The translations under genes were made by a program, and so were the position numbers. Below are positions 1,662 to 59,500 of a stretch of 64,000 bases of DNA, one piece after another. The notes beneath the pieces are model-generated. The model did no database searches, had not been told where the DNA came from, and worked only from the letters and a program-made list of their open reading frames with translations. Source of the stretch: Sinotaia quadrata (lineage: Eukaryota; Mollusca; Gastropoda; Architaenioglossa; Viviparidae). Location: contig CM054177.1 of assembly GCA_028829895.1 (NCBI GenBank), positions 50,949,664 to 51,013,663 on the forward strand, given 5' to 3'. Every line of letters begins with the position of its first letter. The stretch's first letter is position 1.

Positions 1662-1733
1662 CGTTTGGTACGGGACTCACTCAAGAGGAACAGAACTTAT
1701 TACGAGCTGCCCTCAGTGACCCCTCAAACCTAG
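1662..1733 (+). CDS. msp130-like: Gene 1 exon a (first in window)
   Basis: The acceptor follows a T-rich tract (ttctttag) and the donor is gtaagt. It encodes [20 protein letters not shown] and a few further residues, phase 1 to phase 1, 72 nt, and aligns with the 72-nt exon 41242-41313 of gene 2. Its last 16 nt plus the donor are the seed of the minisatellite that follows. Confidence 0.8.
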   Translation, partial: RLVRDSLKRNRTYYELPSVTPQT

Positions 1734-4700
1734 GTAAGTTGTACACATCTGACTGACCCCTCAAACCTAGGTAAGTTGTACACATCTGACTGACCCCTCA
1801 AACCTAGGTAAGTTGTACACATCTGACTGACCCCTCAAACCTAGGTAAGTTGTACACATCTGACTGACCCCTCAAACCTAGGTAAGTTGTACACATCTGA
1901 CTGACCCCTCAAACCTAGGTAAGTTGTACACATCTGACTGACCCCTCAAACCTAGGTAAGTTGTACACATCTGACCAAACTAATCTGCTATCCTGACACA
2001 CTCGATTGTAGAAAAGCAATAAAAATTAATGCAAGTAGTCAAAGAGATATCTGAAAATAACGCATTCACAATTATAATTAACTTAACAGGAAGATCACCA
2101 ACCAGTCATATAATACAACATCTAACGATACAAGAGGCACATTATATTAAATGCAAAATTAAAGTACACAAAAATGTTGCAAGCAATCTAATTGACGTAA
2201 TTATTTAATCTGACACGTCACAAGGGAACTAGTAAATACAACAATCTAAATAGATCAGACGCATGTGGAACTAACAAATACATTCAATCGCCAGACTCAA
2301 TAGGTAGAAACCAACAATTGTGATAATGTACCCTGACAAATTGCTAAAACACTACAAAAATACAATCCCTTAATCAGACTACACACAAATGAAGCAACAA
2401 ATGCATTCATCGAAAGACACAAAGATACCAAAACCATAATCATCTAACCTGGCAAAACACAGAGGAATCAACAAACACAATCATCTAATCTGGAAAAACA
2501 CAGAGAAACCAATAAACACAATCATCTAACCCGGCAAAACACAGAGGAACCAACATACACAATCATGTAACCCGGCAAAACACAGAAGAACCAACATACA
2601 CAATCATCTAACCTGACAAAACAAGAGGAACCAACAAAAACAATCATCTAACCCGGCAAAATACAGAGGAACCAACAAACACTGTCATTTACCTGACTAG
2701 ACACAAAAATTGCATTCGAACAGCTAGACCAGATACAAAGAAAGCAGAAAAAAATGCAGTAAAATGATCAAATAATCAAAAGGTAAACCAACACTTATAT
2801 AATGACATAACCATCGAAGACAAAGACAAATAAACCAGTATATCAATAAGCAACCAAGACAAAAAAGAATTATAGTAATTTACAAAATTGTTGACTACAA
2901 TAAATCCAGTAATGTTCAATATAATATATATTGAAAGGGCTGACACATTAGTCAAGTTTAGTCTTAATAAAAAGGAAATACACTACACACACACACACAC
3001 ACACACACACACACACAGAAGACAGTCTACCCTAAATAAAATCATTTTCAAACAGTGGGATAAACAATATATCTGAGAAGGGTAACGTAGATCAATTCTC
3101 AAAATTCCATCCAAGTTCATCTTTCTTAAAAGTAAACAAAACTTAATGTATACAATACCACTTGGTCGTGAATTCCATCACTTCCTAGTTTTTAAACCAC
3201 CTGTTATCCTTGAATGCAATCTCATTAACAACCACAGACATGGTATCTATAAATACCTGTTATCCTTGAATTTAATCTCATTAACAACCACAGACATGGT
3301 ATCTATAAATACCTATTATCTTTGAATTTAATCTCATTAACAACCACAAATTTGACATCTATAAATACCAATTATTCTTGAATGCAATCTCATTAACAAC
3401 CACAGATTTGACATCTATAAATATTTTTCTTTTTAAAATGTACCTATTTACCAACATTCTCAATTTTCAGACTCCTCTGGCAGGAAACCCTTAGAAATCT
3501 TTTGTTATAAAGAACACCTATTCATCATTTAAAAGCAATAAACTGCAACATAAAACCACGAAACTAAGAAACGCAAACTAAAACAAAAACAACCCCCATC
3601 AGTTAAATATCTTAAAAACATTCTTCTCTCTCTTTCTTTCTCTCTCTCTCTCTCTCTCTCTCTCTCTCTCTCTCTCTCTCTCTCTCTCTCTCTCTCTCTC
3701 TCTCTCGTATACTTACACTTACAAAGGCAAGGTCGATCTAGGACAGAAAAATCAAGCTCTTTAGGACTTACCTGCTCCTAGTCCCGGGTTTGGGCTGGAG
3801 AATAAGCATGAGGAGAGTCTTGGGTCATGTTTGATTGCCGTGTCTGGAATGTTTCCTCTCTGCAAAAGACATATCCCAAACAAGCGGTGATCCACCAGTT
3901 AGTTGCCCTCCATTTTTGTTTCCTGTGTTTTTTATACCTTCTTATTTTTCTTAGTGTGATATCGGCCTCCGCCGAAAGCGTTCCAATCAAGGTGGAATTG
4001 GAACAAAATTCACACAATGTAAGTACTATTAAACCAGCACACAAACACAAAAACCACTCACTGTAAGCAGCTACCAAACCAGTCAAGACACAAACCCACT
4101 AAATATAAACAGCTACCAAACCAGCCAAGACACAAAACCACTCACTATAAGCAGCTACCAAACCAGTCAAGACACAAAAACCGCTCACTATAAACAGCTA
4201 CCAAACCAGTCAAGACACAAACCCATTAAATATAAGCACCTACCCAATTGGCTAAGACACATAATCCCCACTAAATGTGATCACATACCACACCTGCCAA
4301 GACACACAAAACCCTCTAACTATAATGAATAACCCAAAGAGCATATTTCTACTACGAAATACTCGACAGATATGTTACAAACAATCCGACAAATGCAACA
4401 AACTAAGCTAAATTAAAGCAATCAACTAGCCACGCAACTAATATATACTATAAAAAATAGAATCAGCCATGATTGTAGAGTGCAGCAAACTAGCGTTCCT
4501 TTCACAACCAAAGACGCTGCATTTTGAGTGTTCATTTTGGTATTGTTTGTTTATTACTAATATTTTGTTAAAACATGACTGTTTAATTTAATTTGTTTGA
4601 ATACAATGCATTATATTGTAAAACATGTAGAGATGTGTATCACGGAAATGTAATAAGGAGTGAATGAGAGAACAAGCTTATGTAGAACAAGGAAAGTTGG

Positions 4701-56500: not shown

Positions 56501-59500
56501 CTTTAATGCACAACTCTTTATAATAATATTTACTCTAATAATAATTAATAATATTATATATTTAATAATAATAATATTTACTCTAAATGATTAAACCTAA
56601 AATAAAATAAAATCTGTGTTGGCGGGTTAAAAAAAAAACATTTTCACATATATGAATAATAAAATATGCAAATTCAATTGCAATAGTCATCATATAGAAA
56701 TACAACACGACATTACGTTTCATTTAGTAAATGGTTTTCTCTTGTAGATGGACCTTGTGTGAACTGCAGAGACAAATTTCTGAATAAAATAAGATGTAGT
56801 TCTTTGCTGTTCATTTTACCATCATCATCTCAAACTATATCTCTAGCTAGTGCAGTAATTTGCAGAATGTGTCCATATACCTATGGTTTACTTTATTCGA
56901 GCTGTTAATGTAGTAATTATTTCAAATAAAGTTATGATTGTGTGTCTTCTTTCAATCATTTGCTTTGTACTTTATAGCAGACTATTTTATTTTATAATAT
57001 TTCTTTGATATGAATTACTATTATTTGTTCTTTAACCTTTTCACTTTAAGCTCTCATGCTAATTAGTATGAGTCGTGGTGTAGTTCCAATTTCTTAAATA
57101 TCTTAAACGATACTAATATTTATTTAGTAAACTAGTTTTATATTCATTGTCATTTCAGGTCATCAGACGAGAAGTGGTGTATTTTATATATACCCTTATA
57201 ATATTGCCAGTCATAATAATAGTTATTCTATATCTGCAAATATTCAAAGTGGCGAAGCAGCACATCCATATTATTGCTATGGCCCGCGGGAAGCAAGGTC
57301 ATATTCCCCGTAACCGCTACATTAAGATGCTTTTTTTAATGGCGGGACTGTACTTCATTTTTTATATTCCTGCAGGTATTTAACCTCATTACATAGAACT
57401 ACTTTATAGTACCATTAAATGATTTATTAGTATTACTGTTGTTACTTTTAGTAGTAGTAGTAGTAGTAGTAGTAACAGTAGTAGTAGTAGTAGTAGCAGT
57501 AGTAGTAAAGAAGTAATATTGTTACTGCTTCTACTTCGTCTTTCTCTTTTTCTCTCTCTCTCTTTAATATTTTTTCTCTTTTCTTTTCGATCTTATTTTT
57601 AATTTACCGTGTCTGGTAGACATCTGGCCTACTACGCAAACGCATAACTTCTTAGATCCCTTAGTTTTCAAAAATTGCAAAGAGTGAACATCAAAACATA
57701 TAAGTCAGACAAATGCTCACACAAAATGTCATGGTCTGAAACACTGTGCTGAAAATGTGATGATGTGTAGCATTTTTGTATGTCATGGTCTGAAACACTG
57801 TGCTGAAAATGTGATAATATGTAGCCGTGACAAAGTAAATTTGCCTATCCCTATTTAAAATGTAATTGTTATATATATTGCTAAATTGTCGAAGTGACCC
57901 AACTTTGGGCACTCCTTATGATGGTATTTTTGTAATTGTCAGAGTTCGAGTAAACAACTCAAGTTGAGAATAGGATAGAAAATGCTAATGCAATCCAAAC
58001 CACACAATTATTACAATTACTACTTCTAATTTGTAAGCATACCCCAAAGACTTATTCCTATCAGTCATGATTGTGTTGGGTGTTCCTTTTTACCGTCTGT
58101 TGCAGCCGTAATGGTGCCAGCGGTTGACTTCAACTGGGGAAATTTGGCGAATATGAATGACGTCAAGCGGCGGTCCATTCTGCACATGTCTGCACTTCTT
58201 CTCCTTTGTAACTCTATTGCCAATCCTATTATATACGCATTTAAAATAGATACCGTCAAGGTGAGAATGTCTGCACTCCTTCTCCTTTGTAACTCTATTG
58301 CCAATCCAATTATATACGCGTTTAAAATAGGTACCGTCAAGGTGAGAATGTCTGCACTTCTTCTCCTTTGTAACTCTATTGCCAATCCAATTATATACGC
58401 GTTTAAAATAGATATCGTCAAGGTGAGAATGTCTGTCTCCTCACTTTTTGATAACAAGCCATTTTGAATACTTCCTCACAATTTTTAATAACAAACCACT
58501 CTGAACACTTCCTCACGTTCTTAATAACAAACCACTCTGAACACTTTCTCACGTTCTTAATAACAAACCACTCTGAACACTTTCTCACGTTCTTAATAAC
58601 AAACCACTCTGAACACTTCCTCACGTTCTTAATAACAAACCACTCTGAACACTTTCTCACGTTCTTAATAACAAACCACTCTGAACACTTTCTCACGTTC
58701 TTAATAACAAACCACTCTGAACACTTTCTCTCGTTTTTAATAATAAACTACTCTGAACACTTTTCATATTTTTAATAACACTTTCTCACGTTTTTAATAA
58801 TAATCCACTCTTAATACTTTCTCTCTTTTAACACAAGATCACTGTGAACACTTTCTCATTTTGTCTGGAACACTTATTTAGGCAGATTTACCCCATACCT
58901 GACAGCAGGGCTACTTCTTTTTCCATACCTGACTGAGAAGGCCTACATTTATCCCGTACTTAATTGAGTAGGTCTACATTTATCCCGTAATTATTTGAGT
59001 AGGTCTACATTTATCCCGTACTTAATTGAGTAGGTCTACATTTATCCCGTACTTAATTGAGTAGGTCTACATTTATCCCGTACCTGATAGAGTAGGCCTA
59101 CATTTATCCATACCTGACAGATTAGGCCTACATTTATTCCTTACCATACAGAGTAGGCCTAGATTTAATCCAATCCTGAGTAGGCCTTCGTTTAGCCAGT
59201 ACCTTGATGAGTATACTGACATCAAATGTTTGAATAGGCCTACATTTATCCTGATGTGTATATTTAACCAAACATGAGTAGGCCACGTGTATCTTCTACA
59301 TGGCTCATGCCTAGCCGAGTACATTTCATCCATCCAAGCTAAGTATATGATTGCATATACCTACATTTATTTCGTTCTTACGTGTATACATGAATACATT
59401 AATCCAGTACCTTGCTGAATGCATTTACCAAATACCTGATTCATGAATTGTATCTTCAAACTGTACAAGAAACAAATGCATGGTTCCTAACGTTATCTAT

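Follow-up and report, generated by a model that had tools for sequence, protein, structure and literature searches.

Tandem copies of splice junctions in a molluscan locus: a local excess at donors, and arrays at both intron ends elsewhere in the genome

We analyzed a 64-kb stretch of genomic DNA ("the window"; contig positions 50949664-51013663 in a 984-Mb assembly of 26 contigs), in which minisatellites begin at many of the 5' splice sites (donors) of three genes. An earlier note on this stretch had described these arrays and proposed that minisatellites are seeded at 5' splice sites in general. The excess at donors of the window is real and local, and a pattern of donors alone did not carry over to the sample that we tested outside it. 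The genes are:

1662..9158, + strand: gene A (the part within the window), MSP130-like; exons 1662-1733, 5184-5238, 6777-6990, 7692-7924 and 9077-9158
19899..48023, + strand: gene B, MSP130-like, 12 coding exons, from spliced alignment to protein P0001; PF22494
19899-20079, 20618-20731, 21572-21718, 22400-22574, 25045-25189 and 28088-28205, + strand: exons 1-6 of gene B
30991-31164, 41242-41313, 41729-41783, 45011-45218, 46283-46503 and 47939-48023, + strand: exons 7-12 of gene B
53954..58260, + strand: gene C, a rhodopsin-type G-protein-coupled receptor (GPCR); exons 53954-54196, 57159-57375 and 58106-58260, a partial model from an exon finder

Exons were identified first by eye and then with a custom spliced aligner, using protein P0001 as the query. 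The aligner recovered the junctions drawn by hand and found two further exons of gene B (20618-20731 and 30991-31164) as well as the upstream part of gene A, which starts about 14 kb before the window. The query P0006 gave other junctions where A and B are weakly conserved, and we kept those from P0001. A segment of gene A at -117 to -47 (negative positions lie upstream of the window) looked spurious and was excluded. This leaves 10 introns in gene A and 11 in gene B, and the models have 18 donors within the window (4 in A, 11 in B, and 3 in C). A weak exon at 61019-61119, with both ends negative, and an alternative exon end at 54187 in gene C (junction score 15) are outside the donor and acceptor counts.

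Genes A and B lie in tandem, are 40% identical in the part that was compared (88/218), and have four intron positions in common there, as read from the alignments. We call them MSP130-like because the match of gene B in Littorina is annotated as mesenchyme-specific cell surface glycoprotein-like, and because of a Pfam choice-of-anchor I domain. The best named matches of the gene B protein are from the caenogastropods Babylonia (48% identity), Littorina (45%), Batillaria (48%), and Pomacea (34%); two unnamed proteins with 49-50% identity are at the top of the list. Gene C has a match to 7tm_1 in Pfam (E = 1.3e-18).

The arrays at or near exon ends are listed below, with unit lengths in nucleotides (nt) and, where given, results from Tandem Repeats Finder (TRF):

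1717..1975, + strand: array at donor 1733 (A), 7.0 copies of 37 nt, TRF 100% match, junction score 62
5228..5516, + strand: array at donor 5238 (A), 8.0 copies of 36 nt; 7/7 copies read ATAAGT
21703..22053, + strand: array at donor 21718 (B), 10 copies of about 35 nt
22551..22975, + strand: array at donor 22574 (B), 13.7 copies of 32 nt
28192..28628, + strand: degenerate array at donor 28205 (B), units of ~29 nt; TRF 28237-28628
41289..41500, + strand: array at donor 41313 (B), 3.1 copies of 69 nt
41764..41930, + strand: array at donor 41783 (B), 3.0 copies of 56 nt
45214..45538, + strand: array at donor 45218 (B), 49-nt units with just 5 nt of exon
46440..46794, + strand: degenerate array at donor 46503 (B), 3.1 copies of 85 nt; TRF 46534-46794
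54183..54663, + strand: degenerate copies after donor 54196 or GC donor 54187 (C)
58186..58435, + strand: array at donor 58260 (C, the GPCR), 3.1 copies of 81 nt, of 75 nt of exon plus GTGAGA; frame open through the copies
20739..20844, + strand: 2.2 copies of 48 nt, starting 8 nt into the intron after donor 20731 (B)
3955..4306, + strand: exon-like open reading frame (ORF) 3955-4018 plus an array of ~42-nt units resembling its junction

In each array at a donor, the first unit is a real exon end together with its donor, and models that are spliced from the first copy match P0001, a gastropod-like protein. To score a junction, we took the best local alignment across it, with the copy downstream (for donors) or upstream (for acceptors). 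The cut-off of 18 was chosen after seeing the scores. Ten donors reach it: 1733, 5238, 21718, 22574, 28205, 41313, 41783, 45218, 54196, and 58260. Donor 28205 is borderline (18.5), its alignment extends 14 nt into the exon, and 0/500 shuffles were as good. Donor 46503 has a junction score of 0 and is negative in this strict test, but its gapped alignment with its own array was better than all 500 single-base shuffles. That gapped check covered a few chosen sites; a gap-tolerant test was applied to all boundaries, and it is positive at 46503 and also at 20731, where it gives the only junction match. All 11 donors that had been named in the earlier note do carry tandem copies of their own junction, by direct reading, TRF, the junction test (10/11), and the gapped test (46503). 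Two of them, 46503 and 54196, had been called degenerate, which is correct, but 28205, which had been listed as clear, is degenerate too. It is uncertain whether the exon ends at 54196, as the GC donor at 54187 preserves the phase.

Many copies keep donor-like sites, as the earlier note had said. At 1733, 41313, and 58260, the copies that were identified have an unchanged donor; at 1733, each unit includes 17 nt of exon and the 6 copies found retain TAG/GTAAGT. Most copies at 1733, 21718, 22574, 41313, 45218, and 58260 retain GT in a donor-like setting. The loss of GT from the copies at 5238 is also as described. GT is missing from 4/12 copies at 22574 and 5/12 at 28205, and the copies at 46503 read GTAATA or GTAGTA. 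Unit lengths are divisible by three in 3/10 cases, which is about the chance level. In the GPCR, with its unit of 81 nt, all three copies (to 58422) are in frame with the last transmembrane helix. After 41313, the rest of the 415-nt intron is filled with further arrays of 30-nt units, up to 18 nt before the next exon. The exon-like ORF at 3955-4018 has strong splice sites and lies in the gene A intron 1734-5183, outside all of the models; the alignment of its junction to its array is weak (1/500 shuffles were as good). It is possible that this is an unannotated exon or a poison exon.

In the window, 10/18 donors and 0/19 acceptors are positive in the strict test, and 12/18 and 0/19 in the gap-tolerant test. 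The earlier note had counted twenty donors, versus the 18 of these models. By chance, 5.3% of 2500 random intron positions lie in the first unit only of an array and 6.6% in the last only; these rates and the TRF rule used next come from an earlier model of A and B in which two exons were still counted as intron. In that 13-donor model, the TRF rule was satisfied at 7 donors and 0/14 acceptors. Across 5000 circular shifts, the mean was 1.21 donors and the maximum was 6, so 0/5000 reached 7. (The binomial p-value for 7/13 at 5.3%, a rate taken from the other test, is 1.5e-6.) Minisatellites found by TRF make up 60% of the 50 nt directly downstream of these donors and 5% of the 50 nt directly upstream of acceptors, as compared to 27% of the introns of A and B, 27% of the interval between the two genes, and 7% of the sequence after B. 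The pattern is positional, as had been claimed, and not one dispersed repeat family, which we reject: the units of different donors have no mutual match at E 1e-3. The count is also far above local chance. All of these comparisons are post hoc, as the window was chosen because it showed the pattern.

Outside the window, we examined three sets of boundaries. First, the upstream part of gene A has arrays at 1/6 donors (-13827, score 40.5) and 1/5 acceptors (-9996, score 35.5). Second, a search of the genome with Pfam's Myosin_head identified at least 80 exon pieces, of which 60 were tested: all 54 pieces whose frame lacks an internal stop, plus 6 others that have one or two, chosen blind to repeats. 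Myosin is the sole gene family that was sampled genome-wide. Its boundaries were placed using the ends of the hidden Markov model alignments and splice-site weights, so some of the 56 donors and 59 acceptors that could be called may be off. Third, we picked by eye, from the exon finder's list for a 264-kb region around the window, 15 exons that resemble known proteins; their junctions rest on splice-site scores alone. These are presumably from GALNT-like (6), SERINC-like (3), second GPCR (3), glutaredoxin-like (1), and discoidin-like (2) genes. One of the exons that looks SERINC-like by eye (L024:6194-6455) has minisatellites at both ends, acceptor and donor.

At the myosin exons, the strict test is positive for 3/56 donors (stretches L036, L060, and L086; 95% interval 1.1-14.9%) and 7/59 acceptors (L030, L033, L058, L061, L064, L067, and L072; Fisher p = 0.32). 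The background, from 3600 positions, is 4.0% for first units and 4.6% for last units. In this sampled enrichment test, then, a general bias towards 5' splice sites did not hold up. An interim count for the first 40 stretches had given 2/40 donors and 6/40 acceptors, and there were near misses at the donors of L064 (17.0) and L088 (13.0) and at the acceptor of L088 (15.5). The gap-tolerant test gives 7/56 donors versus 10/59 acceptors (p = 0.60); it is loose, because 69/300 and 72/300 random positions in the myosin flanks also pass, inner units included. TRF coverage is 10.5% in the first 50 nt after donors, 10.2% before acceptors, and 12.9% in introns. The acceptor arrays were verified base by base for L030, L033, L058, L061, L064, L067, and gene A at -9996; in L058 and L067, for example, the AG/exon border has copies upstream. 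L058 and L061 are paralogous myosin exons on one contig (at 83.31 and 83.36 Mb) with related acceptor-spanning arrays, so these two may represent one event.

Across all boundaries outside the window, 8/77 donors and 9/79 acceptors are positive in the strict test (17/156 in total; Fisher p = 1.0), as are 12/77 and 13/79 in the gap-tolerant test (p = 1.0). If the boundaries of the two window exons that were added later are included, the strict counts are 8/79 and 9/82, which modestly exceed a background of ~4.5% (p = 0.026 and 0.015); this excess is weaker when set against the 6-7% of array-dense flanks. In short, donors and acceptors alike have junction-spanning minisatellites, at about one boundary in ten, or roughly twice the background.

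We propose that the arrays in the window are junction-spanning minisatellites of the kind described in amphioxus as 'mirages', and that they arise by ordinary tandem duplication that is tolerated at splice sites. In this view, the donor-heavy pattern in the window is a local excess that was picked out by reading and not a rule of the genome. We give the proposal as a whole roughly a two-in-three probability. Tandem duplications (mostly of ~29-85 nt here) would be frequent in the non-coding DNA of this genome, from slippage or unequal exchange, and minisatellites are indeed common, at 27% of the introns of A and B and 12.9% of myosin intron flanks. If a duplication straddles a splice site, then splicing would continue to use the site that adjoins the main part of the exon, since the duplicated exon fragments would be too short to serve as exons. 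The duplication would therefore be nearly neutral, and it could expand or shrink like any other minisatellite. Arrays at acceptors would be the mirror image of arrays at donors. In its favor, the units are locus-specific, paralogous introns have unrelated arrays, and arrays that span acceptors are found elsewhere in the genome. Exon edges, whether at donors or at acceptors, may also be mildly preferred.

Several results weigh against this proposal. In the strict test, the window differs from the myosins (10/18 versus 3/56 donors, p = 1.2e-5). Genes A and B taken together have 10/21 donors positive (46503 in the gapped test only) versus 1/21 acceptors (p = 0.0036), and the neighbouring genes lean the same way (4/15 donors versus 1/15 acceptors). 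Uniform seeding predicts hits at ~4-7% of boundaries and we observe ~11%.

An alternative is that arrays are seeded at donors in certain array-dense regions, or in certain fast-evolving classes of genes such as those for secreted proteins and receptors, perhaps by breakage that is linked to transcription or splicing. The excess in the window and the pooled counts for the 264-kb region (15/39 donors versus 2/39 acceptors in the strict test) make such an effect possible, and we consider it unlikely but worth keeping in mind. Among 23 donors of the region (6 from upstream gene A, 15 from the neighbours, and the 2 window donors that were added later), 5 were positive, versus a background of 6.9% (p = 0.019). 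Furthermore, an intronic GTRAGT without an upstream copy was the first unit of an array in only 1/13 cases (4018, the end of the exon-like ORF), so the motif alone is not sufficient. On the other hand, the difference in the region outside the window is small (5/21 donors versus 2/20 acceptors), the neighbouring exons were hand-picked by eye, and there was nothing of the kind at the myosins. The gap-tolerant test gives 4/15 donors and 2/15 acceptors for the neighbours, and the background in their flanks, from 1800 positions, is 6.9% for first units and 6.3% for last units. A stronger form of the idea is that, in some regions or gene classes, minisatellites are repeatedly founded at functional 5' splice sites, several times more often than at acceptors or in intron interiors, and that the arrays at the paralogous donors 1733/41313 and 5238/41783 were founded independently. 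We find this joint claim slightly more doubtful still. If it were true, it would need a mutational process that is linked to transcription or splicing.

Donor-specific seeding throughout the genome would account for the window itself, but it is very improbable given that the myosin donors (3/56) are near the 4.0% background and below the acceptors (7/59), and that TRF coverage after myosin donors (10.5%) is below the intron mean (12.9%). Selection to keep numerous U1 sites or decoy donors at the 5' end of the intron, which the earlier note had also raised, fares a little worse. It would fit with the donor-like GT that most copies retain at the six donors named above. Also, matches to the first unit were seen at 344/396 donor positions and at 1075/1357 other positions of the unit; this count is biased and has little weight because the ends of units drop out of local alignments. 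The case for selection is weak because the copies at 5238 (7/7) and at 28205 (5/12) lack GT; in addition, those at 46503 keep GT but read GTAATA or GTAGTA, and arrays at acceptors also exist.

We also rejected two predictors of where arrays form. The donor motif does not appear to be the seed: in arrays away from donors, donor-like motifs scoring at least 4 were found in 10/57 on the + strand and 16/57 on the - strand, so there is no gene-strand enrichment. The intron side of the donors with arrays looked stronger (10 versus 5 donors, p = 0.019), but this did not hold up, as three of the donors without arrays in the upstream part of gene A read GTGAGT (two) or GTCAGT (one).

The tandem genes give some information about the age of the arrays. 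At the paralogous donor pairs 1733/41313 and 5238/41783, there is no similarity between the units, and donors 6990 and 7924 of gene A have no array while their partners in gene B (45218 and 46503) do. Because shared introns carry unrelated arrays, the arrays must be younger than both the introns and the gene duplication, or else they turn over faster; either way, the present arrays did not make these introns. The idea that arrays gave birth to introns by tandem duplication of AGGT sites, which the excerpts of PMC3087553 propose for amphioxus globin introns and which the intron 41314-41728 recalls in being almost wholly arrays, is thus scarcely credible, unless arrays have been replaced since. 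A new intron of this type would be bounded by the two copies; here, intron positions are shared between A and B, the arrays are unrelated, and no single array spans from donor to acceptor.

The window has some other features. A 977-amino-acid ORF on the - strand (33711-36644), for which Pfam gave no match, lies between direct repeats that are identical over at least 300 nt (31299-31598 and 37249-37548, 5950 nt apart), and the element at ~31.3-38 kb, in the gene B intron 31165-41241, appears to be a young element of the long terminal repeat type. A 179-amino-acid ORF at 55304-55843 on the - strand looks, by eye, like the end of an ORF from a non-LTR retrotransposon. At 6991-7547 and ~10980-11395, two stretches of similar sequence (by eye) each run up to a (GATA)n tract, which suggests a dispersed element that ends in a microsatellite. 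A protein search found no homologues of the gene C GPCR at E 0.001, a Pfam scan of 20001-30002 in three frames found 0 families, and Rfam had 0 matches to the window. A search of the genome with the PF22494 profile gave 1 weak match, which was not used.

Among the matches listed in the open-access literature, there was no molluscan report of junction-spanning minisatellites. The structure is not reported in the excerpts of PMC3862624 (on cone snail introns), PMC12783039, or PMC4039745, and PMC3152781 lacks all four terms that were looked for. The earlier note's statement that no process of this kind had been described is partly right: the structure has been published as the mirages of amphioxus, but its mechanism is called unclear there (PMC3087553 and PMC3902484, excerpts). 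According to the excerpts of PMC3087553, mirages are minisatellite-like tandem copies of an exon/intron border in Adh3 and the globins BflGb6 and BflGb9, with units of 10-72 nt in Adh3 and 150-160 and 157 nt in the globins. They occur at 5' and 3' borders, and many copies have splice signals. Mirages are also characterized by copy numbers that are unstable, between alleles or somatically. Reverse transcription PCR and the Adh3 data suggest that they leave regular splicing undisturbed.

The arrays described here are like mirages in that the unit spans the exon/intron border (at 11 donors of the window, and at acceptors elsewhere in the genome), in that unit sequences are specific to each locus (no match at E 1e-3), and in that both borders are affected across the genome (3/56 donors and 7/59 acceptors of myosins), although only donors are affected in the window. 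Unlike mirages, they are in a mollusc, as judged by protein similarity, and they affect many donors of one locus. Other systems are less similar. In the lancelet PGBD5 gene, there are tandem repeats of 60 and 108 nt, each described as having its first unit next to a 5' splice site (PMC3902484, excerpts); that is a single gene with support from re-sequencing, versus one assembly here. At the amphioxus VCBP3 locus (PMC2632668, excerpts), introns contain partial exon copies, some with splice sites, but these are not described as minisatellites there. Tandem duplication of AGGT sites as a route to intron gain (PMC4974935, excerpts) also involves splice signals; in contrast, the intron positions here are common to paralogues with unrelated arrays. 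The donor bias of this locus seems to illustrate how a pattern that is conspicuous locally may not hold more generally. What our results do suggest is that junction-spanning minisatellites extend from lancelets to a mollusc and may be common there (17/156 boundaries outside the window), where they would supply ready duplicates of splice sites and complicate the annotation of genes and the assembly of genomes.

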